A stretch of 18,777 nt of DNA from Paenibacillaceae bacterium UBA6304. Its GTDB lineage: Bacteria; Bacillota; Bacilli; Paenibacillales; Paenibacillaceae. The position numbers were made by a program, and so were the translations under genes. The DNA is taken from contig DJTQ01000166.1 of the NCBI GenBank assembly GCA_002439285.1, forward strand, positions 1 through 18,777, written 5' to 3'. Every line of letters begins with the position of its first letter. Position 1 is the first letter of the stretch. Shown one piece after another: positions 1,740-17,846 of the stretch. The notes beneath the pieces were generated by a model, which made no database searches, was not told the DNA's origin, and saw only the letters and a list, made by a program, of their open reading frames with translations.

Positions 1740-2033
1740 TAACTTGAATAACCTAAAAAGCTAAGAAGAGAAAGAGTACCTTGGCGACGTCTTTTTACAG
1801 AGAGCTCCGGTAGCTGAAAAGGAGTAAAGAATAGCTTAGGGAACATGGTCTCAGAGCTGCGCATCGAAACCCCATGTGGTTGTAGGCTGCGCCGGAACCC
1901 GCATCCGTTACTGTGCTAGGGTATAAACGCGAATAGCGTCGTACCTGAAGAGGTGAATGTCGTAAGGCATTTGATAAAATTGGGTGGTACCACGTGAGCA
2001 CAACTCTCGTCCCTTTGGGATGAGGGTTTTTTT
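1740..2033 (+). promoter_or_regulatory. T-box riboswitch leader, methionine specifier (AUG)
   Basis: The leader has the hallmark T-box sequence TGGGTGGTACCACG (1981-1994), which forms the antiterminator bulge that binds the tRNA acceptor end, followed by an intrinsic terminator. Stem I is visible from about 1795 with the apical CTCC GGTAGCTG AAAA GGAG element. The likely specifier is AUG at 1845-1847, in the context GAAC AUG G on the 3' side of stem I. It agrees with the downstream methionyl-tRNA synthetase. Uncharged tRNA-Met should stabilise antitermination and switch the gene on under methionine starvation or synthetase inhibition. The exact pairing of stems II and III was not worked out. 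Confidence 0.9.
2004..2033 (+). terminator. Intrinsic terminator of the T-box leader
   Basis: CTCTCGTCCC (2004-2013) pairs with GGGATGAGGG (2017-2026) across a TTT loop with two G-U pairs, then seven T residues follow. The 5' arm is also the part that would pair in the T-box antiterminator, giving the usual mutually exclusive structures. Confidence 0.88.
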
Positions 2034-2061
2034 GTGTGTCAAAAATGAGGGAGGGAATCTC

Positions 2062-3702: not shown

Positions 3703-3826
3703 CCTAGATAGGGAAGGGCCATCCATCGGAGGGTAGTTGCCGATTCTTGCGGTGCATGCCATATTTTCAGCGTGCTTAACCTGGATGAATACTTTGAATC
3801 TTGTCAGTTCCATTGCGCTGGCCTAA

Positions 3827-5909: not shown

Positions 5910-6073
5910 AGATCAATCACCACCTGAATGTTTGTGGGCTTCAGGGATATCTCGCGGCTAACATCGCCAAAAAGTTCCAGTCCATCACAAGATCGCTCGA
6001 AGGATCACCCATGCAAGGGAGAACTCCCATACTTCCTTTAGCAGCTTATATCAAAGGATAACACATTTTTATA

Positions 6074-6131
6074 GAAACTTGTCGCTATAGACAACGCGGT
6101 GAACCGTATCATAAATAACGGCAAGCTTTTT
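6074..6131 (+). repeat. Dispersed palindromic repeat, copy A (near full length)
   Basis: GAAACTTGTCGCTATAGACA, then a centre containing GAACCGTATCATAA, then ATAACGGCAAGCTTTTT. The two ends are inverted copies of each other. This is one of about eight related copies in the window; its right arm is nearly intact. Confidence 0.75.
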
Positions 6132-6202
6132 GTGGAATTGCTTACGTGGCACGTATTTGTATCGGAGCAGTTGTCGAGCATGTGAACCCTTCGACATACA
6201 GT

Positions 6203-6238
6203 AGAGAAAGCCCGACCGGTAACTGGTCCGGCTTTCTC
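6203..6238 (-). terminator. Hairpin downstream of the nitroreductase gene
   Basis: AGAGAAAGCCCGACC and GGTCCGGCTTTCTCT form a long stem with one mismatch around a GGTAACT loop. It follows the nitroreductase stop (minus strand) by 26 bases. The T-run is poor, so its terminator role is likely but not certain. Confidence 0.55.
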
Positions 6239-6264
6239 TGTCTAATGGGGAATGCAAATTCCTA

Positions 6265-6903
6265 CTAGCGCCAAAAAGTAATTTGTTCACTATGCAAGCG
6301 CACAGATTCATGGCCCTTGTCTTTCGCTTTTCCGATGGAGAGGATCATGACCGGTACATACCTTTCGTCGTCCAGATCAAATGTGCTAACAACCTTATCA
6401 CGTTCAAAGCCTGCCATAGGATTGGTGTCATACCCATGCGCACGGGCTACCAGCATTAGTTGCATGGCAAATAAACTTGCATCAATTTTGGCAATTTCGG
6501 CTTTTAATTCTCTAGGTATTTGAGGATACATACTCATAATTTGTGAGACCTGCTTGTCGCGTACATCCTTAGGCATTTTCCCTTGTTCCACAGCAGTATT
6601 ATAAATCTCCTCTACATATAACTCACTCTGAGTATCACCCAAAATAATGAGCATCGCCGCGGATGTATCATTTTGTCGTGTATTGAACTGTACAAGAGGC
6701 CGAAGTTTGTTTTTCCCTTCAGGGGAATGAACGACGATAACGCGCCATGGCTGCATATTTGCGGAAGAAGGCGCTAAACTTGCTTCTTGAATGATAGCGT
6801 GCAATTCTTCCTGTGAAATTTTGACGTCTTCATCGTAAAGTCGTATGGAGCGCCGGCTAGTAATAATGTTGACAAAATCGTTATTTTGGATATGTTCCAG
6901 CAT
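6265..6903 (-). CDS. Nitroreductase-family FMN oxidoreductase
   Basis: A 212-residue flavoprotein expected to use NAD(P)H to reduce nitro groups or quinones. The N-terminal FMN-binding signature SRRSIRLYDEDVKIS and ASLAPSSANMQPWRVIVV are characteristic. The middle MQLMLVARAHGYDTNPMAGF segment and the final ILSIGKAKDKGHES strand complete the fold. Such enzymes are usually homodimers. An in-frame start at 6963 exists, but AAGGAGAG lies directly before the ATG at 6903 with normal spacing, so 6903 is chosen. A MerR regulator is divergently encoded, and the promoter here has the overlong spacer that MerR proteins act on. Substrate unknown. Confidence 0.9.
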   Translation of the reverse strand: MLEHIQNNDFVNIITSRRSIRLYDEDVKISQEELHAIIQEASLAPSSANMQPWRVIVVHSPEGKNKLRPLVQFNTRQNDTSAAMLIILGDTQSELYVEEIYNTAVEQGKMPKDVRDKQVSQIMSMYPQIPRELKAEIAKIDASLFAMQLMLVARAHGYDTNPMAGFERDKVVSTFDLDDERYVPVMILSIGKAKDKGHESVRLHSEQITFWR

Positions 6904-6969
6904 GATATCTCTCCTTTTGATGTGACCAGTTGTTTTGACAGTAGTGATGTCACTGGTTATCATGTTGTT

Positions 6970-7000
6970 AATATAAACTATGAACCTTGGTTTATAGCAA
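6970..7000 (-). promoter_or_regulatory. MerR-type promoter/operator for the nitroreductase gene
   Basis: On the minus strand TTGCTA (6995-7000) and TATATT (6970-6975) are 19 bases apart, the long spacer typical of MerR-activated promoters. The spacer carries a dyad (6973-6995) with perfect outer arms ATAAAC and GTTTAT; 8 of 11 arm positions match. Both features are read directly; binding by the adjacent MerR protein is inferred. Confidence 0.7.
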
Positions 7001-7035
7001 AAATCAATTATTCTAAATGCAGAAGGGAATAGGTT

Positions 7036-7404
7036 ATGAAAGCGAATGAAGTATCCAGACTGACGGAGCTACCCATATCCACCTTGCGATTCTATGAACG
7101 CAAACAGTTGATCCCGGAGCAGTTTATATCAAGGGATGAAAACAATTACCGCGTATATGATGAAGAAGTGGTTAAATATTTGCAGGATTTGAGAATGCTG
7201 CTCACGCTGGGTTTTACGATTCAGGAATTAATTTTACTCATAAATGAGAGTTCCCATACGGAGAAGGAAGCATTGGTGAAGTATAAAATTGAACATATTC
7301 AAGAGCTGGAAGCAAAATTGGAAGCATCAAAAACATTCTTAAAGGATGTGTTAAAGGGCAAGGCGGATTTTCAGACCCGATGTAAATCTAACCATGAAAC
7401 GTGA
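7036..7404 (+). CDS. MerR-family transcriptional regulator
   Basis: A 122-residue protein. The N-terminal winged helix reads MKANEVSRLTELPISTLRFY then ERKQLIPEQFISRDENNYRV, followed by the YLQDLRMLLTLGFTIQELIL second helix pair. Residues about 78-110 form the dimerisation coiled coil (KYKIEHIQELEAKLEASKTF). There is a short C-terminal tail with one cysteine (about residue 117) and no obvious metal-binding loop. This resembles small MerR proteins that sense oxidative or aldehyde stress. It is divergent from the nitroreductase gene with a shared 132-base region holding the MerR-type promoter. GAAGGG precedes the ATG. The inducer is unknown. Confidence 0.9.
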   Translation: MKANEVSRLTELPISTLRFYERKQLIPEQFISRDENNYRVYDEEVVKYLQDLRMLLTLGFTIQELILLINESSHTEKEALVKYKIEHIQELEAKLEASKTFLKDVLKGKADFQTRCKSNHET

Positions 7405-7420
7405 TATTTAAAGTGTAAAT

Positions 7421-7473
7421 TTAAAACTTGCCGTTACAGAAAGCGCAGGGAACCATATCATAAGTAACGGCAC
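7421..7473 (+). repeat. Dispersed palindromic repeat, copy B
   Basis: The left arm AAAACTTGCCGTTACAGA is intact, the centre carries GCGCAGGGAACCATATCATA, and the right arm starts GTAACGGCA but then diverges. It sits between the merR gene and the TetR remnant. Confidence 0.75.
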
Positions 7474-7501
7474 TACCATAAGTAGCTAAATTTTTGGTGT
7501 T

Positions 7502-7735
7502 TCAATCCACGCAACAAAACGAGTTCTCATACAGCTCATAAACGGTGAGCAGCTGCTCATTGTTCGTGTCAAAAAGCACGTCCGACTTGTCCTTGAACTG
7601 CCGGAAAAAGGTCCGCTCCGTCACACCCGCAAGACTCGCAATCTCCTGCACAGTCGTGTTTTCATAGCCTTTTTCCATAAATAATTTGGCGGCCGCCGCC
7701 TGTTGGCTGATATTCTTGATCGGGGCGCAAAATCA
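7502..7735 (-). pseudogene. Truncated TetR-family regulator (DNA-binding domain only)
   Basis: Minus-strand translation gives IKNISQQAAAAKLFMEKGYE, NTTVQEIASLAGVTERTFFR and QFKDKSDVLFDTNNEQLL, then a stop at 7502-7504. This is a TetR N-terminal helix-turn-helix. The frame runs back to a TGA near 7735 with no start codon, and the ligand-binding domain (normally another 120-150 residues) is missing, so both ends are lost. Repeat copy B lies 29 bases beyond its end. The 5' side abuts the arsR promoter region, so deletion or rearrangement happened here. Confidence 0.8.
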
Positions 7736-7777
7736 ATGTTGCCCTTTACTTTTGAACGGGGCGGTGCTAATATTGGT

Positions 7778-7793
7778 TTCGATAGTTATAGAA
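7778..7793. promoter_or_regulatory. Candidate ArsR operator 1 (before arsR-like gene)
   Basis: TTCGATAGTTATAGAA is a 16-base imperfect dyad, 30 bases before the regulator start. It resembles the sites at 8122 and 9348 and suggests autoregulation. Confidence 0.5.
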
Positions 7794-7823
7794 CTGCGGA
7801 AGAGAGGGGGGGAGGTGATCATT

Positions 7824-8105
7824 ATGGGAGAAAATCAAGAAGATATCGGGCAAGCGGTTAAAGTATATAAAGCTTTGGGGGAACCAACCCGGCTGAAAAT
7901 CGCTTTACTACTCGCGAAAGAGAGCAATTTATGCTTCACCGCTGTCGGTGAAAGGCTTGAATCGGTTGCAGGCTCGACGCTATCGCATCATTTGAAGCAA
8001 TTGACGGACTCTGGCTTGATTGATTCTCGCAAGAATGGATCGTTTATTCACTATAACGTCAATCGAGAAATAGCAGAAAAATTTGCGCCCTTTTTGTTGG
8101 CGTAA
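7824..8105 (+). CDS. ArsR-family (winged-helix) transcriptional regulator
   Basis: A 93-residue single-domain repressor. VYKALGEPTRLKIALLLAKE, then the helix-turn-helix SVAGSTLSHHLKQLTDSGLI and the wing DSRKNGSFIHYNVNRE are the standard ArsR order. The usual ELCVCDL metal motif is replaced by SNLCFTAVGERL with a single cysteine, so a non-metal ligand or thiol chemistry is more likely than arsenic sensing. The ATG at 7824 follows a strong GGGGGGGAGGTGATC; a longer in-frame reading upstream has no ribosome binding site and overlaps the TetR remnant. It is followed by a flavin monooxygenase and an MFS exporter, each with a similar upstream dyad, so it probably represses all three. Confidence 0.9.
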   Translation: MGENQEDIGQAVKVYKALGEPTRLKIALLLAKESNLCFTAVGERLESVAGSTLSHHLKQLTDSGLIDSRKNGSFIHYNVNREIAEKFAPFLLA

Positions 8106-8121
8106 TTTTTTTAAAAGTCAT

Positions 8122-8137
8122 TTCTATATATCTAGAA
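8122..8137. promoter_or_regulatory. Candidate ArsR operator 2 (before flavin monooxygenase)
   Basis: TTCTATATATCTAGAA is a dyad with arms TTCTA and TAGAA. The surrounding 50 bases, from an ATTTTTTTAAA tract to a GAAGTGAAAAGG end, match the region before the MFS gene, so promoter and operator look copied together. Confidence 0.6.
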
Positions 8138-8190
8138 CAGTGGAAGTGAAAAGGCATATACTTAAATGTAGTTTTATTGAGGAGGAGAGA

Positions 8191-9265
8191 ATGACTATGA
8201 GCGGTCAAACGAAGACGATGGAGATTGGAATGAGCACCTTTCTCCATGCAAATCCCGGAAATGGCGATGTCTCGCATGCTGAGAGGCTGCGCCAGGCGAT
8301 CGAAGAGATGCAATTAGCAGATCAAGTCGGCCTTGACGTCTATGCCATTGGCGAGCATCATCGCATCGAATACACAAGCTCTTCGCCAGCCGTCATTCTG
8401 GCTGCCGCTGCCGCTACAACGAAGCGGATCCGGCTCTCGAGCGCGGTTACGGTGCTATCTTCGGACGATCCGGTGCGGGTATATCAGGACTTTGCAACGC
8501 TGGACGGTCTGTCGAACGGGCGAGCGGAGATTATGGCCGGACGGGGTTCGTTCATCGAATCGTTCCCGCTATTCGGCTATGATCTGAAAGATTACGAGGA
8601 ATTGTATGAAGAAGAAACTGGAACTGCTGTTAAAGATTCGCGCCTCCGAAAAGGTGACCTGGCGCGGCGGTCATCGCCCGGCGATTGACGACATGGGAAT
8701 CTATCCTCGTGCACAGCAGGAGCCTTTGCCTATCTGGATCGGTACGGGAGGCAGCCCGGAATCGGCTGTTCGGGCCGGTTTGCTAGGGCTTCCGATTGCC
8801 TTCTCTATCCTGGGCGGAGAGCCGCAGAGATTTGCACCCTTGGTGGAGCTTTATAAAACAGCCGCTGTGAAGGCCGGTCACGATCCGAATAAGCTGCAAA
8901 TTGCTACGCATTCGCATGGCTTTATTTCGGATACGACACAAGAGGCGGCCGAACGGTATTATCCTGTCATGGCCGACAAAATGAACCGGATTGGCCGGGA
9001 ACGAGGCTGGCCTCGTTATACACGCGACTCATACGATTCAGCCCGCAGCCTTCGCGGCGCTCTTTATGTCGGAGATCCCGAATATGTCGCAGAGAAGATC
9101 GTGCTGCTGCATAAGAACCTAGGCTTGACCCGATTCATGATGTACAACGATTTCAGTTCATTGCCGCATCGCGACTTGCTTCGGACGATTGAGCTTCTCG
9201 GTACCAAAGTAGCGCCGATGGTTCGTAAGGAGCTCGCCCGTCAGACGTCCGACCATAACGTTTAA
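8191..9265 (+). pseudogene. Luciferase-like (LLM) flavin-dependent monooxygenase, frameshifted
   Basis: Two overlapping frames together encode one LLM-class enzyme of about 357 residues. Part 1 (8191 to about 8615) carries MEIGMSTFLHANPGNGDVSH, VYAIGEHHRIEYTSSSPAVI and NGRAEIMAGRGSFIESFPLF, ending GYDLKDYEELYEE. Part 2 (8606-9265) continues KLELLLKIRASEKVTWRGGH and PLPIWIGTGGSPESAVRAGL to the C-terminus. The frames join at the GAAGAAGAAA tract near 8607-8616, where one base too many (or two too few) breaks the frame. Part 1 alone would run on to a stop at 8688. The ATG at 8606 has GAGGA at 8596-8600 and could restart translation, so two polypeptides are possible. GGAGG at 8181 sets the start at 8191 (8197 is an alternative). 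A sequencing error cannot be excluded. Confidence 0.85.
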
Positions 9266-9347
9266 AGCAGAGTACGAACGCTTGGAACGAGGAGGTTTGG
9301 TTGAGCCGTGAAGTCGGCGAATTGAGCATTATTTTTTTAAATATGGC

Positions 9348-9363
9348 TTCTATAGATTTAGAT
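9348..9363. promoter_or_regulatory. Candidate ArsR operator 3 (before MFS exporter)
   Basis: TTCTATAGATTTAGAT resembles operator 2, and the flanking tract and spacing to the gene are also conserved. The MFS start is 27 bases downstream. Confidence 0.55.
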
Positions 9364-9390
9364 CTGTTGAAATGAAAAGAGGAGAAATAG

Positions 9391-10566
9391 ATGAGAAACT
9401 CATGGAAAATTTATGTTCTGGCCATTGTCAGTTTTTTAGTCGGTACTTCGGAGTTCGTGATTGCAGGCATTTTGGATATGCTTGCAAGTGATATTGGAGT
9501 GTCGGTAGCGGCGGCCGGACAGTTGATTACAGTCTACTCGCTTGCTTATGCCATCGGCACCCCGATTCTTATTGCACTCACGGCAAAAATGGATAGAAGA
9601 AAGCTTATGCTGTCGGCTTTGGGATTGTTTTTCGTAGGCAACTTGATCACTGTCACAACTACAGGCTACGGTATGCTGCTCGGAGCAAGAATTATTTTGG
9701 CGATCAGCACAGGGGTATTTATGGTCGTCGCCATGACGATTTCCACCCAAATATCTCATCCTGAAAAACAGGGCAGCGCTATCGCCACGGTTTTATTGGG
9801 CTTTAACCTAGCACTTATTTTAGGGGTCCCACTTGGGAGGATCATTGCGGGCTCACATGATTGGAAGATCATCTTCACGGGGGTCGGAGCCCTGAGCTTG
9901 ATCGCGATGTTGGTCCTTTGGCTGACGATTCCGAAATCAGAAGGAGAGGCTCCCGTTCCAATTCGGGAACAGCTCGCCTTATTAAAAAGCCCCCGAATCA
10001 CTGTCGCGCTTTCCATCAGTTTTTTCTGGATATTGGGCTATACGATCTTGTACACCTATATAACGCCGTTTCTTTTGGACATTACGGGGATGAGCGAAGG
10101 GATGGTAAACATCGGGTTGTTTGCGTTTGGGATAGCCAGTCTCATAGGCTCCCAAGTTGGCGGCTACGGTGCAGATAAATGGGGAATCCCCCGTACGATG
10201 ATTGGAGGCCTGCTCTTTCACTCCGGAATATTATTTTTACTGGCTGCGTTCTCCCATTCGTCCATGTTCGTGTTACCTTTGCTTATGTTATGGTCCTTTT
10301 TCGCTTGGTCGACAGGGCCGGTTCAACAAGTTTATTTAATCGGCATGGCTCCTCAGGCTTCGGGGATCATCCTGAGTTTGAACAATTCTATCGTGCAGCT
10401 GGGTATGGCCGTAGGGGCTGTAATTGGGGGTCTCATTGTAGAAAACATCTCTCTTGCAGCAGTTGGCTGGCTTGGCGGAGTTGGCGTCGCAATTGGGCTC
10501 ATCCCGGCTATAATTTCTTTATCCATGCGTCGCCGATCTGCAGGGGCGGAACGAAACGGCGCATAA
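9391..10566 (+). CDS. MFS drug:proton antiporter-like exporter (DHA1, AraJ/YdhP type)
   Basis: A 391-residue inner-membrane protein with twelve predicted membrane segments. The N-terminal VSFLVGTSEFVIAGILDMLA, the loop 2-3 motif ALTAKMDRRKLML and the LGVPLGRIIAGSHDWKIIF segment after membrane helix 5 are typical of the AraJ/YdhP/Cmr group, which exports drugs or sugars by proton exchange. GAGGAG precedes the ATG. It lies downstream of the ArsR regulator and the broken LLM gene, with its own promoter-like region and operator dyad, which suggests efflux of the compound sensed by the ArsR protein. The substrate is not readable from sequence. Confidence 0.9.
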   Translation: MRNSWKIYVLAIVSFLVGTSEFVIAGILDMLASDIGVSVAAAGQLITVYSLAYAIGTPILIALTAKMDRRKLMLSALGLFFVGNLITVTTTGYGMLLGARIILAISTGVFMVVAMTISTQISHPEKQGSAIATVLLGFNLALILGVPLGRIIAGSHDWKIIFTGVGALSLIAMLVLWLTIPKSEGEAPVPIREQLALLKSPRITVALSISFFWILGYTILYTYITPFLLDITGMSEGMVNIGLFAFGIASLIGSQVGGYGADKWGIPRTMIGGLLFHSGILFLLAAFSHSSMFVLPLLMLWSFFAWSTGPVQQVYLIGMAPQASGIILSLNNSIVQLGMAVGAVIGGLIVENISLAAVGWLGGVGVAIGLIPAIISLSMRRRSAGAERNGA

Positions 10567-10696
10567 CCGATGAAGCTGAAGTTTGAAAACCACGTTTCTA
10601 TATAAGTTTAACAAATGACATCAGCAGAAGGAAGCAGTGGTGAAAGTGCTTCCGAAGCATCCTATCACTCGCTTCCCTTTGAATCACCGACAGATC

Positions 10697-10721
10697 AGGC
10701 CGCCGATTTCTTCGGTGGCCT
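10697..10721 (+). terminator. Probable terminator after the MFS gene
   Basis: AGGCCGCCGA pairs with TCGGTGGCCT around a TTTCT loop. Only a short pyrimidine run follows, so strength is uncertain. Confidence 0.5.
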
Positions 10722-10780
10722 TCTGTGCATGTTAGCTGGATTGTAGCCTCTAACTGTGCGAGACGACAAGCTCCTTTTGT

Positions 10781-10836
10781 ATTTTTGCCGATATAACCAT
10801 TAAGTCGAACCGTATCATAAGTAGAGGCAAGTTTTA
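10781..10836 (+). repeat. Dispersed palindromic repeat, copy C
   Basis: The right half is well kept: GAACCGTATCATAAGTAGAG then GCAAGTTTT. The left arm is decayed to TTTTTGCCGATA. Confidence 0.65.
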
Positions 10837-10887
10837 GACGCATGTTTCCAGTCATAAAGAGCCAGGAGCCAGTGAGAAACAGCCACT

Positions 10888-10904
10888 TAAAACTTGCCGT
10901 TATA
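10888..10904 (+). repeat. Dispersed palindromic repeat, copy D (left arm only)
   Basis: TAAAACTTGCCGTTATA matches the left arm and stops where the first MarR/hydrolase unit begins (ACGATGG at about 10904). Confidence 0.6.
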
Positions 10905-10946
10905 CGATGGTGTACCCAGAGGGGGACTTATGCCTGCTGCAGCAAA

Positions 10947-10977
10947 AGTCCCCTCCATGGTTTTGGTGGAAGGGACT
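10947..10977 (-). terminator. Terminator of marR copy 1
   Basis: AGTCCCCTCCA and TGGAAGGGACT pair with one mismatch. Read on the minus strand the stem is followed by TTTTGC. The same hairpin is found after marR copy 2. A competing stem (GGGGACTT with AAGTCCCC, 10921-10954) overlaps its left arm. Confidence 0.6.
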
Positions 10978-11018
10978 GGTGTAATTAACGTTCAACATAG
11001 TTGCTTCAAAAAACGTGG

Positions 11019-11489
11019 TCACGGCGTCGAGGGATTACTAGACGCTGAAGACCCTTTTTTTGTTTTTCCCGCCAGCCTCGTAATCGACTCAATGTCCTGA
11101 TCAGTTAATTGATCTAGGAAATGCATGCGTATCGCCTTTGCGACTACGGGACGGGCATCATCCAATATTGATTTTCCAGCGGAAGTGATGATGACTTGTA
11201 CGCCACGATCTTTGACCACTGATTTCCTCAACACAAGCCCGCGCTTCTCCATCCTAGTCAGATGATGTGACAATCGACTCTTATCCCAGTCCATGGATTC
11301 GGCCAGTTCCTGTTGGCGAAGACTGCCGTCCCCCATGAGGTCTAACCGATCCAATACTCCATAATCGCCCTCGGATAGTCCCGTTTGCTCGGACATCTCT
11401 TTAATTACGCGACCGAAGATGCTGTGAAAGGAGCCTTTCCACATATACCATAATTGAATTTCTTCTTCGTTCAGTTCGCTCTTATTCAT
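11019..11489 (-). CDS. MarR-family regulator, copy 1
   Basis: A 156-residue winged-helix repressor. ELAESMDWDKSRLSHHLTRM then EKRGLVLRKSVVKDRGVQVI form the recognition helix and wing, including the DRG wing motif; helices at both ends make the dimer interface. The protein has no cysteine, so thiol oxidation of the OhrR/SarZ kind is unlikely. It is divergent from an alpha/beta hydrolase with two perfect palindromic operators between them. The ATG at 11489 has no Shine-Dalgarno sequence, but TATTAT lies six bases before it, pointing to a leaderless mRNA. An in-frame TTG at 11525 also lacks a ribosome binding site and lies within the promoter's -35 hexamer. About 87% identical by hand count to copy 2. 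Confidence 0.9.
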   Translation of the reverse strand: MNKSELNEEEIQLWYMWKGSFHSIFGRVIKEMSEQTGLSEGDYGVLDRLDLMGDGSLRQQELAESMDWDKSRLSHHLTRMEKRGLVLRKSVVKDRGVQVIITSAGKSILDDARPVVAKAIRMHFLDQLTDQDIESITRLAGKTKKGSSASSNPSTP

Positions 11490-11495
11490 GGGTAT

Positions 11496-11525
11496 ATAAT
11501 ACCATAGTTGACGTGTCAACTTCAA
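11496..11525 (-). promoter_or_regulatory. marR copy 1 promoter, leaderless geometry
   Basis: On the minus strand TTGAAG (11520-11525), an 18-base spacer and TATTAT (11496-11501) are followed after six bases by the ATG, so transcription should start at or next to the A of the start codon. The spacer is mostly filled by operator O1. Confidence 0.65.
11506..11521. promoter_or_regulatory. MarR operator O1, unit 1
   Basis: AGTTGACGTGTCAACT is a perfect 7+2+7 palindrome inside the spacer of the marR promoter. Confidence 0.8.
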
Positions 11526-11535
11526 TGTGTTAAAG

Positions 11536-11565
11536 TTGCCTCAGGTTGACGTGTCAACCTATACT
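11536..11565 (+). promoter_or_regulatory. Hydrolase copy 1 promoter
   Basis: TTGCCT (11536-11541), an 18-base spacer and TATACT (11560-11565). Operator O2 fills the spacer. The -35 boxes of the two divergent promoters are only 10 bases apart. Confidence 0.6.
11544..11559. promoter_or_regulatory. MarR operator O2, unit 1
   Basis: GGTTGACGTGTCAACC is a perfect 7+2+7 palindrome; its centre is 38 bases from that of O1. Confidence 0.8.
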
Positions 11566-11598
11566 GATATTGAGAAGATCAAGAAAGGAACATTTATT

Positions 11599-12519
11599 AT
11601 GAAAATGAACGTAAGTACTTCTTCTCCAGTCGTCTCGGTAAAGCCGGTAGTGCTGCCAGTCCCAGGCCGTGGTGAGGATCTGCAAGTGCGGGTATCTGCT
11701 CCAGCGACGGGAAGTGGATTGCCTATTATTATTTTCTCACACGGCTTTGGCTGGTCTTTGGACGGCTACGGTCCGTTAGTCGACTACTGGGCGGCTCACG
11801 GCTTCGTGGTCATCCAACCCACCCATCTAGACTCGAGGACGCTGAATCTTCCTCCTGACGATCCCCGTTCACCACTGATCTGGCGTTTCCGCGTCGAGGA
11901 CCTGAAGCAAATCCTTGATCAACTTGATCTTATTGAAGCTTCCGTTCCAGGCCTCAGTGGACGTCTTGACCGGAGTCGTATCGCCGCAGTCGGACATTCT
12001 TGGGGAGGCCAAACGGTGAGCATGCTGCTCGGTGCACGAGTCCTCGATGCCCATGGCCAACCGGGGGAGGACATGTCCGACTCGCGGATCAAGGCGGGCG
12101 CATTGCTCTCCACGACTGGCCTTGGTGGAGCTGACTTGAGTCCGTTCGCGGCAGAGCACTTCCCATTCATGAACCCGAGCTTCTCCGACATGAGGACGCC
12201 GACCCTTGTGGTGGCGGGGGATCATGATCAATCCCCACTATCCACTCGGGGGCCGGACTGGTTCACCGACCCCTACTTCCTGAGCCCGGGCAGCAAGAGC
12301 CTGCTCACCCTCTTCGGGGCGGAACACTCGCTAGGCGGAATTGCCGGGTACAACGCCGCGGAAACGACGGACGAGAATCCCGAACGAGTTGCATTGCTCC
12401 GGCAACTCACGTGGTCTTACCTTCGTGATGCGCTCGATTTCGACGATTCCAGCTGGCTGGTAGCCCGGAAAGCTCTGGAGGAGGGCGCCAATCCGTTAGG
12501 TCGCATCGAATCCAAGTAA
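11599..12519 (+). CDS. Alpha/beta hydrolase, copy 1
   Basis: A 306-residue cytoplasmic serine hydrolase with no signal peptide. The nucleophile elbow is GHSWG (Ser134). The likely acid is Asp208 or Asp210 in VVAGDHDQS, and the histidine is His243 in LFGAEHSLGG. The oxyanion-hole loop reads FSHGFGWS (His48). The fold resembles dienelactone-hydrolase, chlorophyllase and PAF-acetylhydrolase-like esterases; the substrate is unknown. A longer in-frame reading begins at 11527, but it would start within the operator region and has no ribosome binding site, while AAAGGAA lies before the ATG at 11599. It is divergent from marR copy 1 and should be induced when that repressor is released. About 90% identical by hand count to copy 2. 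Confidence 0.92.
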   Translation: MKMNVSTSSPVVSVKPVVLPVPGRGEDLQVRVSAPATGSGLPIIIFSHGFGWSLDGYGPLVDYWAAHGFVVIQPTHLDSRTLNLPPDDPRSPLIWRFRVEDLKQILDQLDLIEASVPGLSGRLDRSRIAAVGHSWGGQTVSMLLGARVLDAHGQPGEDMSDSRIKAGALLSTTGLGGADLSPFAAEHFPFMNPSFSDMRTPTLVVAGDHDQSPLSTRGPDWFTDPYFLSPGSKSLLTLFGAEHSLGGIAGYNAAETTDENPERVALLRQLTWSYLRDALDFDDSSWLVARKALEEGANPLGRIESK

Positions 12520-12555
12520 GAACCTAAAAGGCGAGATCAACGCGAATCAAAGAAT

Positions 12556-12580
12556 GGGCCATCCCATAAAAGGATGGCCC
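12556..12580 (+). terminator. Hairpin after hydrolase copy 1
   Basis: GGGCCATCC (12556-12564) pairs perfectly with GGATGGCCC (12572-12580). No T-run follows, so termination may be weak. The same hairpin follows copy 2. Confidence 0.6.
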
Positions 12581-12634
12581 TAAAACTTGCGGTTACAGAT
12601 AGGCGCGGAGAACCGTATCACAAATAGGGCGAAG
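12581..12634 (+). repeat. Dispersed palindromic repeat, copy E
   Basis: TAAAACTTGCGGTTACAGAT then GGAGAACCGTATCACAAAT; the right arm is decayed. It directly follows the hairpin of hydrolase copy 1. A larger GGCGAAGC/GCTTCGCC stem (12628-12670) overlaps its end. Confidence 0.7.
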
Positions 12635-12721
12635 CAAACGTCCTGAAATGCTATGAAACTTAGCTTCGCCTTTCATCTTTCATCAATTATGCAAGACAGC
12701 AACTCGACCGTTTGCATCCCC

Positions 12722-13519
12722 TTAGCGTGTTTTGGGGCGCGAAATGCGTTCCATGATCAAAGCTACTCTGCGTCGGGGAAGAAAACGGCCCATCTGGGCC
12801 GACATGTAGTTGTTTCGCCCGTCGATAATATAACTGCTTCCTTTGTCGATTCCACGAAATCCGGCTTGAACTACGTTCTCCGGAGTGGACAGCGCACTGC
12901 CCGCCGCCATGTCCCGGCTTTCATCAGCATCGAAGAAGCCCGTATCCGTCGCACCCGGGCACAGGGTAAGTATGCGGACACCTCGTCCGCGGGTTTCCGC
13001 CCATAGCGCTTCGGAGAAAGATAATACGAATGCCTTGGTAGCACCGTAAACAGCCGAATAAGCGCAAGGCACGAATGCGGCCATGGAAGCCACGTTTACG
13101 ACGATTCCGTCCTTGCGCCCCAGCATGCCGGGCAGAAAATGGTGCGTTAGGTCGACAAGCGCGGCGGTGTTCAGCATGATCTCTTCCTGCTCGCGCTCCG
13201 GATCCATATCCTCAAAGCGGCCATACGTGCCAAAGCCTGCGTTGTTGATGAGAATATCGACCGTCAGGCCGAGTTCGTTCATGGATTCGGCTAGTTGGCG
13301 CGGGGCACCTGCTTTGCATAAATCGCTGGGCAGGGCATACGCCTGCACGCCGTGCTTTCGTTTGATTTCACCGGCTAACGCCTCGAGCTTATTTTGTGAA
13401 CGTGCAGTTAGTACGACATGGCAGCCTCGTGCTGCCAACTCTTTGGCATACGACTCGCCGATCCCGGAGGAAGCGCCAGTGACCACAGCCAGCTTGCCTT
13501 GATAATGATATGAGTTCAT
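12722..13519 (-). CDS. Short-chain dehydrogenase/reductase (classical SDR)
   Basis: A 265-residue NAD(P)-dependent Rossmann-fold oxidoreductase. TGASSGIG (residues 14-21) binds the cofactor, NNAG (92-95) stabilises the fold, and Asn117, Ser145, Tyr158 and Lys162 (VYGATK) form the catalytic tetrad. Arg40 after the second strand suggests NADP preference. The C-terminal loop has CPGATDTGFF. AAGGGGG precedes the ATG at 13519. An XRE/MmyB-type regulator ends 95 bases upstream on the same strand, and an inverted repeat covers the SDR start and -10 region, so that regulator probably controls it. The alcohol or ketone substrate is unknown. Confidence 0.93.
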   Translation of the reverse strand: MNSYHYQGKLAVVTGASSGIGESYAKELAARGCHVVLTARSQNKLEALAGEIKRKHGVQAYALPSDLCKAGAPRQLAESMNELGLTVDILINNAGFGTYGRFEDMDPEREQEEIMLNTAALVDLTHHFLPGMLGRKDGIVVNVASMAAFVPCAYSAVYGATKAFVLSFSEALWAETRGRGVRILTLCPGATDTGFFDADESRDMAAGSALSTPENVVQAGFRGIDKGSSYIIDGRNNYMSAQMGRFLPRRRVALIMERISRPKTR

Positions 13520-13556
13520 GATACAGCCCCCTTGTCGTTGAAGTTGTCTGTATCAT
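13518..13556. promoter_or_regulatory. Inverted repeat at the SDR promoter (candidate XRE operator)
   Basis: ATGATACAG (13518-13526) and CTGTATCAT (13548-13556) are perfect 9-base inverted arms with centres 30 bases apart, about three helical turns. One arm overlaps the SDR start codon and the other a TATGAT -10-like hexamer read on the minus strand. Confidence 0.55.
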
Positions 13557-13614
13557 ACCAAGGACAGGAGGGGGCTAACCACAGTGTCTCCATACTATTA
13601 ATGGGACTAACAGG

Positions 13615-14478
13615 TTAAGATTGCGGTGACAATTCGGAGTCTTGCATCAGCAGCAGCGCGAGTCTCTCTTCCGTGCCTGAACCTGGCGTCGGAACGAAGA
13701 AGCACCAGTGCAGCCCAGGATCGTTGTCGATGGCGGCGGCGCAATGGATCGTGAACTCTAACTTCTCTCCATCAGGTAGGCGATAATGAACCGGAACAGT
13801 GCTTTTTTGCCGGATTTCATGCCACTCCCACAAACGTACGAAGTCCTCGCTGTTTAGTTTCAAACGCTCGAATCGTTCCATGTACATCGGATTGTCTTTG
13901 AAACGGTCGAAGCTTGCTCGTATCAACGCCGTCATGTATCGGGCGAATTCCTCCCAATTCACCAGCCTTTTCGGGTACTCCGGATCCAGAAACAGCAGCG
14001 TCACCATGTTCCGTTCGCTTTCCGGCAGACGGCCGAAATCCGCCACAACAAGCTCTGCTCCCCGATTCCAAACGATCATATCGGCAACCTCATTCGCGAT
14101 GAAAGAAGGATAACGAAGTTGATCCACAAGATTCTGAAGAAATCCGACATCGGGTTTCTCTAGTTTCGATGCCATACTGAAACTGACCGGATCGAGTGCT
14201 GCTAGGTTGAACAAGTGCTTCCGCTCGTCCTCGTCCAACTGCAGCGCTTGGCTGATATGGGACAAAACATCAGGGGAAGGATTTATCTCTCGACCCTGTT
14301 CCAGCCAGGTATAGTAAGTTACACTGACATTGGCGAGATAGGCGACTTCTTCTCTTCGAAGTCCCGGGGTACGCCTTCGGCCGGGAAATGGCTTGATTCC
14401 CGCTGCTTCAGGCTGAAGCCGATATCTGCGCGATTTGATGAATTCCCCCAATGCGGATGAAGAATAACGGTTCACCAT
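13615..14478 (-). CDS. XRE-family regulator with MmyB-like ligand-binding domain, second
   Basis: A 287-residue regulator of the same family as the one at 5091-5909. The N-terminal helix-turn-helix carries TPGLRREEVAYLANVSVTYY and TWLEQGREINPS, and the C-terminal part LRYPSFIANEVADMIVWNRG with NMVTLLFLDPEYPKRLVNWE is the MmyB-like small-molecule domain. An in-frame GTG at 14502 has no good ribosome binding site; ATG 14478 follows GGGAGG by about 11 bases and matches the usual family start, so it is preferred. The SDR gene follows on the same strand with an inverted repeat at its promoter. Ligand unknown. Confidence 0.88.
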   Translation of the reverse strand: MVNRYSSSALGEFIKSRRYRLQPEAAGIKPFPGRRRTPGLRREEVAYLANVSVTYYTWLEQGREINPSPDVLSHISQALQLDEDERKHLFNLAALDPVSFSMASKLEKPDVGFLQNLVDQLRYPSFIANEVADMIVWNRGAELVVADFGRLPESERNMVTLLFLDPEYPKRLVNWEEFARYMTALIRASFDRFKDNPMYMERFERLKLNSEDFVRLWEWHEIRQKSTVPVHYRLPDGEKLEFTIHCAAAIDNDPGLHWCFFVPTPGSGTEERLALLLMQDSELSPQS

Positions 14479-14767
14479 ATAAATCCACGCCTCCCTTTGC
14501 ACCTTATTATATCGCTATTGAAGATCGACTTCATGGAGGAATACTTCTCGGGATACGTAAGTTCCGGCTTTAACGGACCGTTGGTATATCCATTGACTCC
14601 ATTCATCGCGATCCAACTGGAGCTTGAAGCAGCCTTGTGGATTGCCTGGCTATCGATGCTTCGTCTGGAGACGAAGGACGTGAACTAGACAGCACGGGGA
14701 TTCAGACTGATTTCAATCTGCGATAATGAGGTTATGCTAAATAAGAATCGTTTAGGAATCTTGCGTT

Positions 14768-14823
14768 CGATTTCGCTCTATAGATGATAGGGGGAATAGT
14801 ACCACAAGTAACGGTAAGTTTTT
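14768..14823 (+). repeat. Dispersed palindromic repeat, copy F
   Basis: The right arm AAGTAACGGTAAGTTTTT is well kept and the centre has GAATAGTACCACAAG. The left arm, GATTTCGCTCTATAGATGAT, is decayed but alignable to copy A. Confidence 0.6.
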
Positions 14824-14978
14824 CGGAGATACCCGAGCTCTTGGAAAGGCGCTTTCCCAGGCCTGAGTTTGGGATAGATCTTATTCGGAGGAAAAGGCGG
14901 TGTAAACGGGCTGCTGCTTGCTTTTGGAATACAGAACGATGGGGTACCTAGAGGGGAATGTTGCTAACTGAAGCAAAA

Positions 14979-15005
14979 GCCCCTCCATTATTTGGTGGAA
15001 GGGGC
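14979..15005 (-). terminator. Terminator of marR copy 2
   Basis: GCCCCTCCA pairs with TGGAAGGGGC with one unpaired A. On the minus strand it is followed by TTTTGC. Equivalent to the hairpin at 10947-10977. Confidence 0.6.
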
Positions 15006-15048
15006 CGGTTCAATTAACGTTCTACATATTTGCTTCAAAAAAATGTGG

Positions 15049-15519
15049 TCACGGCGTCGAGGGGTTACTAGACGCTGAAGACCCTTTTTTTGTTTTTTCC
15101 GCCAGTCTCGTAATTGACTCAATGTCTAGATCGGTTAACTGATCTAGGAAATGTTTGCGTATGGCCATGGAGACAATGGGTCGGGCATCATCTAATGTTG
15201 ACTTTCCAATGGGAGTGATGATGACTTGAACACCGCGATCTGCATCTAATGGCTTCCTCATCACAAGGCTGCGTTTTTCCATCCTCGTCAGATGATGTGA
15301 CAGTCGACTCTTATCCCAGTCCATGGATTCGGCCAACTCCTGTTGGCGAAGGCTGCCTTCCCCCAGAAGGTCTAACCGATCCAATATCCCATAATCGCCC
15401 TCGGATAGTCCGGTGCGCTCGGACATCTCTTTAATTACGCGACCGAAGATGCTGTGAAAGGAGCCTTTCCACTTATACCATAATTGAATTTCTTCTTCGT
15501 TCAATTCGCTCTTATTCAT
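15049..15519 (-). CDS. MarR-family regulator, copy 2
   Basis: A 156-residue paralogue of the regulator at 11019-11489, differing at about 20 positions by hand count. The recognition helix MDWDKSRLSHHLTRMEKR is identical, so both proteins should bind the same operators. The change SVVKDRG to PLDADRG lies in the wing, and other differences fall in the C-terminal dimer and effector region (for example PVVAKAIRM to PIVSMAIRK). The C-terminal TKKGSSASSNPSTP is identical. The start is set at the ATG 15519 as in copy 1: no Shine-Dalgarno sequence, and TATTAT six bases upstream. The longer in-frame reading to 15612 runs through both operators and is rejected. Confidence 0.9.
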   Translation of the reverse strand: MNKSELNEEEIQLWYKWKGSFHSIFGRVIKEMSERTGLSEGDYGILDRLDLLGEGSLRQQELAESMDWDKSRLSHHLTRMEKRSLVMRKPLDADRGVQVIITPIGKSTLDDARPIVSMAIRKHFLDQLTDLDIESITRLAEKTKKGSSASSNPSTP

Positions 15520-15525
15520 GGGTAT

Positions 15526-15555
15526 ATAATAGCATGGTTGACGTGTCAACTTCAA
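15526..15555 (-). promoter_or_regulatory. marR copy 2 promoter, leaderless geometry
   Basis: TTGAAG (15550-15555), an 18-base spacer and TATTAT (15526-15531) six bases before the ATG, exactly as in unit 1. Confidence 0.6.
15537..15550. promoter_or_regulatory. MarR operator O1, unit 2
   Basis: GTTGACGTGTCAAC is a perfect palindrome of 6+2+6. The outermost pair of unit 1 is lost here (G and T instead of A and T). Confidence 0.75.
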
Positions 15556-15573
15556 CGTGCTACATTTACTTAA

Positions 15574-15589
15574 GGTTGACATGTCAACC
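15574..15589. promoter_or_regulatory. MarR operator O2, unit 2
   Basis: GGTTGACATGTCAACC is a perfect palindrome, now with an AT centre; it lies 38 bases from O1, as in unit 1. Confidence 0.78.
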
Positions 15590-15628
15590 AATGCATAAAT
15601 TGAGAAGACCAAGAAAGGAACATCTATT

Positions 15629-16549
15629 ATGAAAATGCACGTAAGTACGTCTACTCAGGTTATTTCGGTAAAGCCGATAGTGCTGTCAGCCCCGGGCCGC
15701 GGTGAGGATTTGGAAGTGCGGGTATCAGCGCCAGCGACGGGTAGCCAATTACCTATTATTATTTTCTCGCAAGGCTTTGGTTGGTCGATGGACAGCTACG
15801 GTCCGTTAGTCGACTACTGGGCTGCTCACGGCTTCGTGGTCATTCAACCCACCCATCTCGACTCGAGGACGCTGAATCTTCCTCCTGACGATCCCCGTAC
15901 ACCACTGATCTGGCGATTCCGCGTCGAAGACCTGAAGCGCATCCTTGACCAACTTGATCTTATTGAAGCTTCCGTTCCAGGCCTCAGCGGACGTCTCGAT
16001 CGCAGCCGCATCGCCGCAGCCGGACACTCCTGGGGAGGTCAAACGGTGAGCATGCTGCTTGGCGCGCGAGTCCTCGATGCCAATGGCGAACCGGGAGAGG
16101 ACATGTCCGATTCGCGGATCAAGGCGGGCGTCTTACTTTCCACGACTGGCCTGGGTGGAGCTGACTTGAGTCCGTTCGCGGCAGAGCACTTCCCATTCAT
16201 GAACCCGAGCTTCTCCGATATGAGGACACCGACTCTCGTGGTCGCGGGGGATCATGACCAATCCCACCTGTCCACTCGGGGGCCGGATTGGTTCACAGAC
16301 CCCTACTCCCTGAGCCCAGGCAGAAAGAGCCTGCTCACCCTTTTTGGGGCAGAACATATACTTGGCGGAATCTCCGGGTACAACGTCGCGGAGACGACGG
16401 ACGAGAACCCCGAACGAGTTGCTTTGCTCCAGCAGCTTACGTGGTCTTACCTTCGGGATGCGCTCAATCTCGACGAATCAAGCTGGTTGGCAGCCCGGAA
16501 AGATCTGGGGGAGAGTGCCAATCCATTAGGTCGCATCGAATCCAAGTAA
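15629..16549 (+). CDS. Alpha/beta hydrolase, copy 2
   Basis: A 306-residue paralogue of the hydrolase at 11599-12519, with about 32 differences by hand count. Ser134 in GHSWG, Asp208/Asp210 and His243 are kept, so it should be active. The oxyanion-loop residue His48 of copy 1 is Gln48 here (FSQGFGWSMDS in place of FSHGFGWSLDG), next to changes at positions 54 and 56, and there are further changes near the acid and histidine loops (P213H, F227S, S244I). Substrate range may therefore differ. AAAGGAA precedes the ATG. Divergent from marR copy 2. The promoter hexamers seen before copy 1 are not conserved here. Confidence 0.92.
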   Translation: MKMHVSTSTQVISVKPIVLSAPGRGEDLEVRVSAPATGSQLPIIIFSQGFGWSMDSYGPLVDYWAAHGFVVIQPTHLDSRTLNLPPDDPRTPLIWRFRVEDLKRILDQLDLIEASVPGLSGRLDRSRIAAAGHSWGGQTVSMLLGARVLDANGEPGEDMSDSRIKAGVLLSTTGLGGADLSPFAAEHFPFMNPSFSDMRTPTLVVAGDHDQSHLSTRGPDWFTDPYSLSPGRKSLLTLFGAEHILGGISGYNVAETTDENPERVALLQQLTWSYLRDALNLDESSWLAARKDLGESANPLGRIESK

Positions 16550-16585
16550 GAACCTAAAAGGCGTGATCAAAGCGAATCAAAGAAA

Positions 16586-16608
16586 GGGCCATCCCAAACG
16601 GATGGCCC
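16586..16608 (+). terminator. Hairpin after hydrolase copy 2
   Basis: GGGCCATCC (16586-16594) pairs perfectly with GGATGGCCC (16600-16608). It is followed by TAAAAACA, not a T-run. Confidence 0.6.
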
Positions 16609-16632
16609 TAAAAACATGCAGTTACAGATGGC
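16609..16632 (+). repeat. Dispersed palindromic repeat, copy G (left arm only)
   Basis: TAAAAACATGCAGTTACAGA corresponds to the left arm. The centre and right arm are absent, and unit 2 similarity ends here. Confidence 0.55.
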
Positions 16633-16652
16633 ACACCTGGAACTTCCATCAC

Positions 16653-16680
16653 TTGACAATACCGGAAAATGGACTTAAAT
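16653..16680 (+). promoter_or_regulatory. Possible promoter for the DUF1772 gene
   Basis: TTGACA (16653-16658), a 16-base spacer and TTAAAT (16675-16680), about 75 bases before the gene start. The -10 is imperfect. Confidence 0.4.
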
Positions 16681-16755
16681 TTGTGTGTACATCCTTGATC
16701 TGATTTTCATTCGTAATAAACTTGTTCAATCAAATTATGGGTACTGGAGGAAATA

Positions 16756-17247
16756 ATGATATTGAAATTTCTCTATTATTTAACCTTTGCATCCTCGTTG
16801 GGGGCCGGTTTGCTTGCCGGTGTGTTTTTTGCTTTCTCGATCTTCGTCATGCAATCGCTCGCTAAGCTTCCTACGGAACAAGGCATATCTGCTATGCAGA
16901 GCATCAATACAACGATTCTGCAATCGTCCTTTATGGTGGTCTTCACGGGCACAACTGTCTTAAGTGTCGTTTTGGGGATCGCTTCATTTATCAAATTGGG
17001 CACAACCAGCGCGTTATATGTGATTGCTGGGAGCCTGCTCATTTTTATCGGAGTGTTCCTGGTGACGGCTTTATTCAATGTACCGCTCAACGATTCTTTA
17101 GCCGCCGTAACGCCCGGGAGCCCGGAGGGGGCACAAGTGTGGAAGAAATACTTGGATAGTTGGATGCCATGGAATCATGTGCGGACGATTGCTTCTATCG
17201 GGGCGCTGATTTTCTTTATTATCGCTATTCGCAGGTGGGGAGTCTAG
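16756..17247 (+). CDS. DUF1772 (anthrone-oxygenase-like) membrane protein
   Basis: A 163-residue protein with four membrane segments (about residues 5-32, 57-78, 84-106 and 142-160). The GLLAGVFFAFSIFVMQSLAK start and the loop before the last helix, WMPWNHVRTIASIGAL, carry the W-NH-R-IAS signature of DUF1772. The family is named after fungal anthrone oxygenases, but bacterial members have no proven role. GGAGG lies before the ATG at 16756. A strong terminator follows, so it is probably a single-gene unit. Confidence 0.87.
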   Translation: MILKFLYYLTFASSLGAGLLAGVFFAFSIFVMQSLAKLPTEQGISAMQSINTTILQSSFMVVFTGTTVLSVVLGIASFIKLGTTSALYVIAGSLLIFIGVFLVTALFNVPLNDSLAAVTPGSPEGAQVWKKYLDSWMPWNHVRTIASIGALIFFIIAIRRWGV

Positions 17248-17297
17248 TAGTAATGAGGCCGCTGGTAGAGCAAGGCTGGTGTCGAGGCCATATTGCG

Positions 17298-17338
17298 AAA
17301 AAACGCTACTGACATAACGTTGTCAGTAGTGGTTTTTT
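17298..17338 (+). terminator. Intrinsic terminator after the DUF1772 gene
   Basis: CTACTGACA (17306-17314) pairs perfectly with TGTCAGTAG (17321-17329), followed by GG and six T residues. An A-run on the left makes it usable in both directions. Confidence 0.85.
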
Positions 17339-17375
17339 ATAATCGGACATGTAAATGTAAAGGAGATGATATCTT

Positions 17376-17780
17376 GTGAATTTAGCTTCTTTACGCATCA
17401 TTACTGACGACGTGGATCGTCTCGTCGAGTTCTATGAGAAAGTCATGGGGGTTTCGGCGGAGCGACCCGCGCCCGTATTTGCCGAACTCATTGTGCCATC
17501 TTGCACTCTTGCAATCGGCCACTCCCAGACGGCGCAGCTATTCGGTGCCGGTTCCGTAATGGGGGCTAATAATCGCACTGTCATTATTGAGTTCCGCGTC
17601 GACGATGTCGAAGCCGAATATGTGCGCTTGAAGCCATTGGTCGATAATTGGGTAAAGGAACCGACCACGATGCCGTGGGGGAACCGTTCTATGCTGTTCC
17701 GTGATCCCGATGGCAACCTTCTTAACTTCTTCGAGCCGGTGGCCGAGGATGCAATTAAACGGTTTAGCAGTAGACATTGA
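17376..17780 (+). CDS. VOC-fold (glyoxalase/bleomycin-resistance type) protein, second
   Basis: A 134-residue vicinal oxygen chelate protein. ASLRIITDDVDRLVEFYEKV opens the first module and TMPWGNRSMLFRDPDGNLLN with FFEP closes the second; the final Glu of NFFEP is the usual metal-ligand position. It is unlike the VOC protein at 1209 in most positions, so the two are not recent duplicates. The start is GTG 17376, preceded by AAGGAG with ten bases spacing; a TTG two bases earlier reads straight into TGA. It converges with the GyrI-like gene, with a strong hairpin between them. Substrate unknown. Confidence 0.87.
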   Translation: MNLASLRIITDDVDRLVEFYEKVMGVSAERPAPVFAELIVPSCTLAIGHSQTAQLFGAGSVMGANNRTVIIEFRVDDVEAEYVRLKPLVDNWVKEPTTMPWGNRSMLFRDPDGNLLNFFEPVAEDAIKRFSSRH

Positions 17781-17800
17781 CAGGCAGTAAAGGATGGCCT

Positions 17801-17846
17801 TCAAACCTGCCGTTACAGACAGCGCAGGGAATCGCATCACAAATGA
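17801..17846 (+). repeat. Dispersed palindromic repeat, copy H
   Basis: TCAAACCTGCCGTTACAGAC then AGCGCAGGGAATCGCATCAC; the right arm is lost and the next terminator begins immediately. It is preceded by GGATGGCC, as in copies E and G. Confidence 0.7.

Follow-up and report, generated by a model that had tools for sequence, protein, structure and literature searches.

Intergenic repeats in a Paenibacillaceae contig as probable Ccr-type recombination sites of a one-way cassette array at rlmH

Contig DJTQ01000166.1 of Paenibacillaceae bacterium UBA6304 carries a family of short palindromic repeats that an earlier note, made from the letters of this DNA alone, had taken for a mobile REP- or MITE-like element (repetitive extragenic palindrome or miniature inverted-repeat transposable element) or a conserved RNA hairpin. 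The window analyzed here is this whole contig (18,777 bases), one of the 452 contigs of a 4.3-Mb draft that is 86% complete. We conclude, with a probability of roughly 0.88, that the repeats are recombination sites of about 58 bp of the type associated with the Ccr large serine recombinases, and that they delimit a one-way array at rlmH of cassettes that mostly lack a recombinase and were probably moved in trans.

The window holds six full and two half copies, every one on the plus strand and intergenic, in agreement with the roughly eight related copies described before, and the consensus given at that time was about right. All eight lie outside Pfam-supported genes; purely mechanical open reading frames (ORFs) on the opposite strand overlap some of them. 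The full copies, here called attachment sites 1 to 6, are located at 6073..6130 (core, starting with GAACC, from 6101), 7422..7472 (core at 7450), 10780..10836 (core at 10807), 12581..12636 (core at 12610), 14767..14823 (core at 14794), and 17801..17846 (core at 17829). In sites 1 to 4 the right half encodes exactly E-P-Y-H-K-stop, and the other two are degraded, site 5 reading E-stop-Y-H-K-stop and site 6, which has lost its right arm, E-S-H-H-K-stop. The half copies (10886..10909 and 16609..16631) are left half-sites with no recognizable core; near 10888 and 16610, each agrees with 17 of the 22 consensus bases, compared with 14 at the best unrelated place on the plus strand. Against profile R1, which was itself built from the same copies, the window copies have E values of at most 1.6e-10. 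By contrast, sequence, pattern, and covariance-model searches found no convincing copy in the rest of the 4.3-Mb draft (best E value, 0.62). Taken literally, this is the outcome from which the earlier note would have concluded a local duplication; that conclusion fails because the repeat family is present in relatives from six families.

The identity of the sites follows from their right half. In a full copy this half, GAACCGTATCAYAARTAR, is the 3′ end of rlmH (…EPYHK-stop); one copy in genome G008 (genomes are cited by such numbers) reads on upstream in frame as …EQIYRAVKINRGEPYHK-stop, at a place where rlmH (PF02590) was subsequently identified. A covariance model built from the six full window copies gave matches (E ≤ 1) in 56 of 59 genomes, and rlmH was found in 58 of the 59. 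Within a genome, these matches cluster and share their direction. The 120 best listed matches (E ≤ 1.1e-5; 40 genomes from six families), typed after leaving out five further window copies, comprise 80 on the contig that carries rlmH, 39 on other contigs, and one that is the window's own. The 150 kb downstream of rlmH hold 72 of these 80, 71 of them in the rlmH direction, and in eight single-contig genomes 24 of 32 matches fall into this 150-kb zone, where 0.41 would be expected. A wider profile search covered 80 fetched loci (1.52 Mb), picked mostly downstream of rlmH or around matches. It returned 221 matches at an E value of <0.01, those above this value being dropped, and none at an E value of ≤0.5 in a reversed-DNA control, for a profile seeded partly from the searched loci. 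After overlapping matches on opposite strands had been merged, 49 contigs held 216 sites, of which 173 were internal and the other 43 were rlmH-type ends. The rlmH contigs account for 148 of the internal sites; 145 share the direction of rlmH, and all 148 lie downstream of it, the stretches having been selected that way. The longest array, in G008, contains 26 sites over 126 kb, including rlmH's own end. Over the arrays as a whole, cassettes have a median length of 3.6 kb.

The internal sites have, moreover, evolved as rlmH codons. E-P-Y-H-K-stop is encoded at 114 of the 173, and the ratio of nonsynonymous to synonymous changes is 0.085 in the rlmH frame versus 2.7 and 1.8 in the other frames, the detection profile not being codon-aware. 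An independent check drew on at least 120 stretches of named genomes picked by a left-arm pattern that ends within the second codon: EPYHK-stop is present in 73 of 124 sites found in this way, whose codons 3 to 6 lie outside the pattern, and the ratio over codons 3 to 5 is 0.13 in the rlmH frame versus 2.0 and 1.1 in the others. The simplest explanation is that leading cassette ends have served as the end of rlmH, which would make the codon constraint a built-in record of cassettes having ended this gene.

We then asked how the two arms of the sites relate to each other. Under a loose rule (at most eight mismatches), the left arms of the 173 internal sites fall into class A (51), class B (50), class C (25), or none of these (47). 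In the window, both left half-sites carry a class A arm, and the left arms of sites 3 and 5 are class C-like and class B-like, respectively, all by eye. The dyad center of the site lies between the G and the A of the glutamate codon. For the arm tests, sites with more than three core mismatches, minority-strand sites, and rlmH ends as left arms were omitted. Across a cassette, comparison of a site's right arm with the reverse-complemented left arm of the next site gives a mean score of 5.72, reached by none of 300 shuffles (5.00 ± 0.14; 145 pairs), whereas the arms within the same site give a mean of 5.08, reached by 36 of 300 shuffles (4.94 ± 0.11; 160 sites). Likewise, two arm types are associated across the cassette (odds ratio, 6.6; p = 7e-5; n = 90) and not within the site (odds ratio, 1.7; p = 0.28; n = 87), in tables that leave out pairs with an arm of neither type. 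Because the arms match across the cassette and not clearly within the site, the palindrome mainly reflects the meeting, at a junction, of two cassette ends that are each a terminal inverted repeat. The independent decay of the arms, noted correctly before, is explained in the same way, the two arms of one site belonging to different cassettes. The model scan of this genome and its relatives that had been proposed as a check yielded many matches in the relatives, but no clear co-variation of the arms within a copy.

Between species, cassettes are mixed at these sites. Between genomes, homology extends up to the core in 58 pairs of right flanks and, with rlmH ends excluded, in 16 pairs of left flanks; a single junction among those compared has homologous sequence on either side. 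In 376 homology blocks of at least 400 bp, 67 of 1,504 ends lie within 40 bp of a site (4.5% versus 1.05%; maximum of 200 shifts, 2.7%); rlmH was excluded from this test, as its inclusion inflates the figure to 31% of ends at sites. For 17 blocks, an end coincides with a site in each of the two genomes, and 16 of these show 88 to 98% identity between species, which suggests recent movement. Filled and unfilled rlmH sites were also found: the cassette adjoining rlmH in G017 and G026 sits 3,175 bp further out in G012, and the one adjoining rlmH in G003 and G008 sits 10,587 bp further out in G030 (94 to 97% identity over about 400 bp; the other rows of the comparison are mostly shorter matches).

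Ccr-like genes are present at rlmH. Over the 59 genomes, a CcrB model gave 36 matches at an E value of ≤1e-40, and the 14 best (213 to 438 bits, 11 genomes) all lie within 25 kb downstream of rlmH; among the 22 weaker ones, one in G007 is also at rlmH, and the rest are elsewhere or on other draft contigs. The best NCBIfam model was CcrB for all ten rlmH-linked proteins scanned (253 to 438 bits; equivalog cutoff, 900), and by these scores the rlmH-linked recombinases would be relatives of CcrB and not proven equivalogs. In G025, the locus comprises an A-family polymerase (PolA, DNA_pol_A), an intervening ORF, a D5_N helicase, two CcrB-like genes, RadC, and type I restriction-modification genes. 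Of the elements scanned, this is the only one with a full replication locus, that is, polymerase and helicase beside ccr-like genes: G009 has a D5_N helicase and no polymerase among the ORFs scanned there, and neither of the two ORFs scanned in G010 matches an NCBIfam model. A large serine recombinase (PF07508) is encoded in only 8 of 164 inter-site intervals, and in five of these eight the terminal arms match with a score of at least 8 (e.g., GTGGTAAAGC/GCTTTACCAC in G015 and G029). Passenger-type ends, too, bound recombinase-bearing elements (by eye, class A in G010 and class B in G009). A recombinase fragment was also seen at rlmH in G040, and at least one of the weaker CcrB-like matches away from rlmH, in G049, is maybe the other half of an rlmH-linked gene split between contigs.

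We propose the following mechanism. The right half of a site consists of the last six rlmH codons (E-P-Y-H-K-stop) and the short arm that opens the next cassette, and the left half is the end of the preceding cassette or, at the first site, of rlmH itself. A circular cassette would recombine with the 3′ end of rlmH; the crossover probably falls on the GA of the glutamate codon, where the dyad center lies. In doing so, it would swap the rlmH tail for its own copy and push the older tail, together with all older cassettes, outward, and repeated insertion would produce a one-way array. Insertion with tail replacement would explain why an array runs in one direction only, why the right half is conserved, why the two arms of a site are independent, and why internal sites carry rlmH codons. 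Since class A and class B ends are common to passengers and recombinase-bearing elements, we infer that cassettes without a recombinase are moved in trans by helper SCC-like (staphylococcal cassette chromosome-like) elements with similar ends, and such movement may continue at present.

Several observations weigh against this interpretation. Homology breakpoints are only modestly enriched at sites, the arms within a site match slightly better than shuffles, and 47 of the 173 left arms stay outside three classes that are loosely defined. As for location, 39 of the 120 best matches are on contigs without rlmH, and nine are on rlmH contigs elsewhere or in the reverse direction. The window's own draft (86% complete) contains no rlmH match and neither a PF07508 match nor a strong CcrB-like one, and the linkage of the window contig to rlmH is deduced from homologous sites and cassettes in other genomes. 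Where CcrB-like proteins were found, their scores are below the equivalog cutoff, and 48 of the 59 genomes, many of them drafts, have no CcrB-like match of at least 213 bits at rlmH; many arrays may be relics or may have been moved by something else.

Another possibility is that the arrays are a fossil pile of ordinary composite SCC islands, once autonomous, that have lost their recombinases and undergo no mobilization in trans now. The 48 genomes speak for it, as do the degradation of two of the six full window sites and the reduction of two further copies to halves. However, PF07508 recombinases occupy only 8 of 164 intervals in arrays of short cassettes (median, 3.6 kb), the 16 blocks at 88 to 98% identity that end at sites in both species suggest recent movement, and passenger-type arms also bound the recombinase-bearing elements of G010 and G009. 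We consider a purely fossil origin unlikely, though worth keeping in mind.

The remaining explanations have far lower probability. That the repeats are hairpins of the REP, BIME (bacterial interspersed mosaic element), or MITE kind, which transpose singly into intergenic gaps by means of a transposase encoded elsewhere, would fit short imperfect palindromes between genes, a window in which no recombinase gene was seen, and the minority of copies far from rlmH. The part of this proposal that agrees with the data is mobilization in trans without a local transposase; its REP- or MITE-like part does not, as the copies concentrate in one-way rlmH arrays and are not scattered. Such elements would also not be expected to lack convincing further copies in their own genome, to share one direction per array, to have arms that do not clearly match within a copy, to carry a right half that evolves as rlmH codons, or to coincide with the exchange of flanks and whole cassettes between genomes, so that this origin is very improbable. 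We give slightly less weight still to the view that the repeats are conserved hairpins in RNA, whether as terminators, attenuators, or small RNAs. Some copies do fold well (6065-6135 reaches −18.1 kcal/mol), and those at 12581 and 16609 follow a strong GGCCATCC/GGATGGCC hairpin. Several other copies fold poorly, however, and with within-site arm matching not clearly above shuffles, the claim that the copies form a long hairpin does not hold; the arm types are associated across the cassette and not within the site, orientation follows rlmH independently of the neighboring genes, and an Rfam scan of the window found nothing at gathering score except an unrelated T-box. A true integron, with attC sites and the tyrosine integrase IntI, is equally hard to credit despite the one-way arrays of imperfect palindromes between small gene modules: the attC core motif is GTTRRRY, which the site cores lack, no PF00589 appears among the matches listed for the arrays of G008, G030, G026, and G017, and serine recombinases adjoin some arrays.

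Read as cassettes between Ccr-type sites, the intervals of the window combine regulators with between one and three genes for enzymes or transporters; homologues of these cassettes sit, among other places, in the rlmH arrays of G001, G005, and G006. Cassette 1 (6131..7421) encodes a nitroreductase (6265-6963, minus strand) and a MerR-type regulator (7036-7404, plus strand); its ends are terminal inverted repeats, the right arm of site 1 matching the left arm of site 2 with a score of 9 (shuffle mean, 5.0). Cassette 2 (7473..10779) contains an ArsR-type regulator (7824-8105), a luciferase-like monooxygenase (about 8197-9265), and a major facilitator superfamily (MFS) transporter (9391-10566). 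The monooxygenase is split over the overlapping ORFs 8083-8688 and 8606-9265, reflecting a broken frame or an assembly error. A 54-bp repeat (76% identity; 8100-8153 and 9326-9379), a near-palindrome containing TTCTATA, lies upstream of the monooxygenase and MFS genes, and the two copies are possibly operators of the adjacent ArsR-type regulator. Cassette 3 (10910..12580) carries a MarR regulator (11019-11525, minus strand) and an alpha/beta hydrolase (11527-12519, plus strand), and a block homologous to it begins 79 bp after the rlmH site in G005. Cassette 4 (12637..14766) encodes a short-chain dehydrogenase (12722-13519) and an MmyB-like regulator (13615-14502), both on the minus strand. Cassette 5 (14824..16608) holds a second MarR and hydrolase module (15049-16549), with 85% identity to cassette 3 over the 300 nucleotides compared; its homologue is in the rlmH array of G001, and the homologous stretch starts 5 bp from a site in both genomes. 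Cassette 6 (16632..17800) encodes an Anthrone_oxy (PF08592) protein (16756-17247) and a glyoxalase (17376-17780), without a recognized regulator, and its end shares 93% identity over 483 bp with a cassette end in G006, both stopping 18 bp past the core start. At 1754-3702, a T-box leader (RF00230) is followed by a methionyl-tRNA synthetase gene, with relatives in site-bearing contigs of G001 and G005; this unit looks like a cassette, and the site expected near 3733 is not recognizable in the window. In the arrays of four other genomes (87 ORFs), the commonest cargo comprises regulators, two-component systems, ATP-binding cassette (ABC) transporters, and PF00144 serine hydrolases, each with at most 3 of the 87. 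A role of the arrays as defense islands was considered and found no clear support: against PADLOC, the 87 ORFs gave only scattered matches, to 11 families of at most three members each, mostly generic regulators or single genes.

Some occurrences of sites and rlmH tails lie apart from the regular arrays. Good matches far from rlmH (G008, C1:1865975-1869871; G030, C1:1559429 and 2812261) are possibly secondary integration loci. Second, shorter rlmH-like genes (frames of 136 to 139 amino acids) lie downstream of rlmH in the reverse direction in G018 (C1:4261366), G021 (C13:843185), and G033 (C1:687390). In G004 (C7:163459-205357), a tyrosine recombinase (PF00589) directly follows rlmH, with a second rlmH tail about 41 kb on, and an unrelated recombinase class may use the same rlmH end there. 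A search of plasmids returned one site-like match in a Paenibacillus polymyxa plasmid record (NZ_CP010270.1:209295-209354) and a 4% match for a 2.7-Mb P. cellulosilyticus record. Phage carriage was probed with one exact left-arm pattern, which had no match in viral_contigs. Finally, a left-arm match in a 3.7-kb contig of a metagenome-assembled genome labeled Chitinophagaceae (L182, JACMKU010000026.1) is probably misbinned Paenibacillaceae DNA.

It is tempting to speculate that Paenibacillaceae and their relatives maintain, as a serine-recombinase counterpart of the sedentary integron, a standing array at rlmH with dozens of self-regulated cassettes that lack a recombinase, and that occasional SCC elements carrying Ccr supply and rearrange this array in trans; we regard this wider picture as evenly poised. 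Under it, every cassette would carry a working rlmH C terminus because each in turn ends that housekeeping gene. Most of what is known of SCC comes from staphylococci, in which it gives rise to methicillin-resistant Staphylococcus aureus. If environmental Paenibacillaceae keep arrays with dozens of SCC-type cassettes, they would constitute a large reservoir of this recombination system in which its evolution would become testable. The sites also mark the limits of accessory modules (a regulator with an enzyme or transporter), which makes a catalogue of such modules over many genomes possible. SCC-like islands at rlmH, Paenibacillus included, are already known, but arrays this long and codon-constrained sites look new: the literature searched, available in part and with most subscription papers and all bioRxiv preprints outside its range, contained no long Paenibacillus passenger arrays, codon-constrained internal sites, or cross-cassette arm pairing.

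Among known systems, SCC usually forms one or a few large islands, whereas here a single array has 26 sites and most cassettes span a few kilobases and lack a recombinase. The recombinases, too, are distant (253 to 438 bits against the CcrB cutoff of 900). To judge from the available text of the sources, the system nevertheless shares with SCC and SCCmec (CcrA/CcrB/CcrC) the insertion at the 3′ end of rlmH, large serine recombinases that resemble the ccr type, the TATCATAA core, and imperfect inverted repeats; what we found here is the rlmH-derived core GAACCGTATCAYAARTAR, such inverted repeats, and the TATCATAA motif as given in the accessible part of PMC6222049. Tandem SCC islands occur, according to the passages available (PMC3956370, PMC6222049, PMC10061031). 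The Enterococcus cassette chromosome (ECC) is similar in its rlmH insertion, attachment (att) sites of about 50 bp with TATCATAA, imperfect inverted repeats, and CcrAB-like recombinases, but the portion seen of that report gives fewer than five att matches per genome (PMC6222049), compared with up to 26 in one array here. Pol-SSB islands are listed at rlmH in Bacillota, including P. pinistramenti (NZ_VAWG01000004.1), where islands are in tandem, and resemble the G025 locus in their polymerase, further ORF, helicase, and two serine recombinases, as far as the available table and text go (PMC10061031); that paper concerns primases, and its available part describes no long passenger arrays, codon constraint, or cross-cassette arm matching.

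A further parallel is with integrons, whose enzyme is unrelated. Sedentary chromosomal integrons and CALIN (clusters of attC sites lacking integron-integrases) are long one-way arrays of small cassettes, mostly without a recombinase, at one chromosomal locus, and the rlmH arrays share with them this one-way, single-locus organization and the predominance of recombinase-less cassettes. They differ in that recombinase class and site are unrelated, the cassettes are larger, with their own regulators and with genes in both directions, and insertion takes place in a coding gene, the end of which has to be restored.

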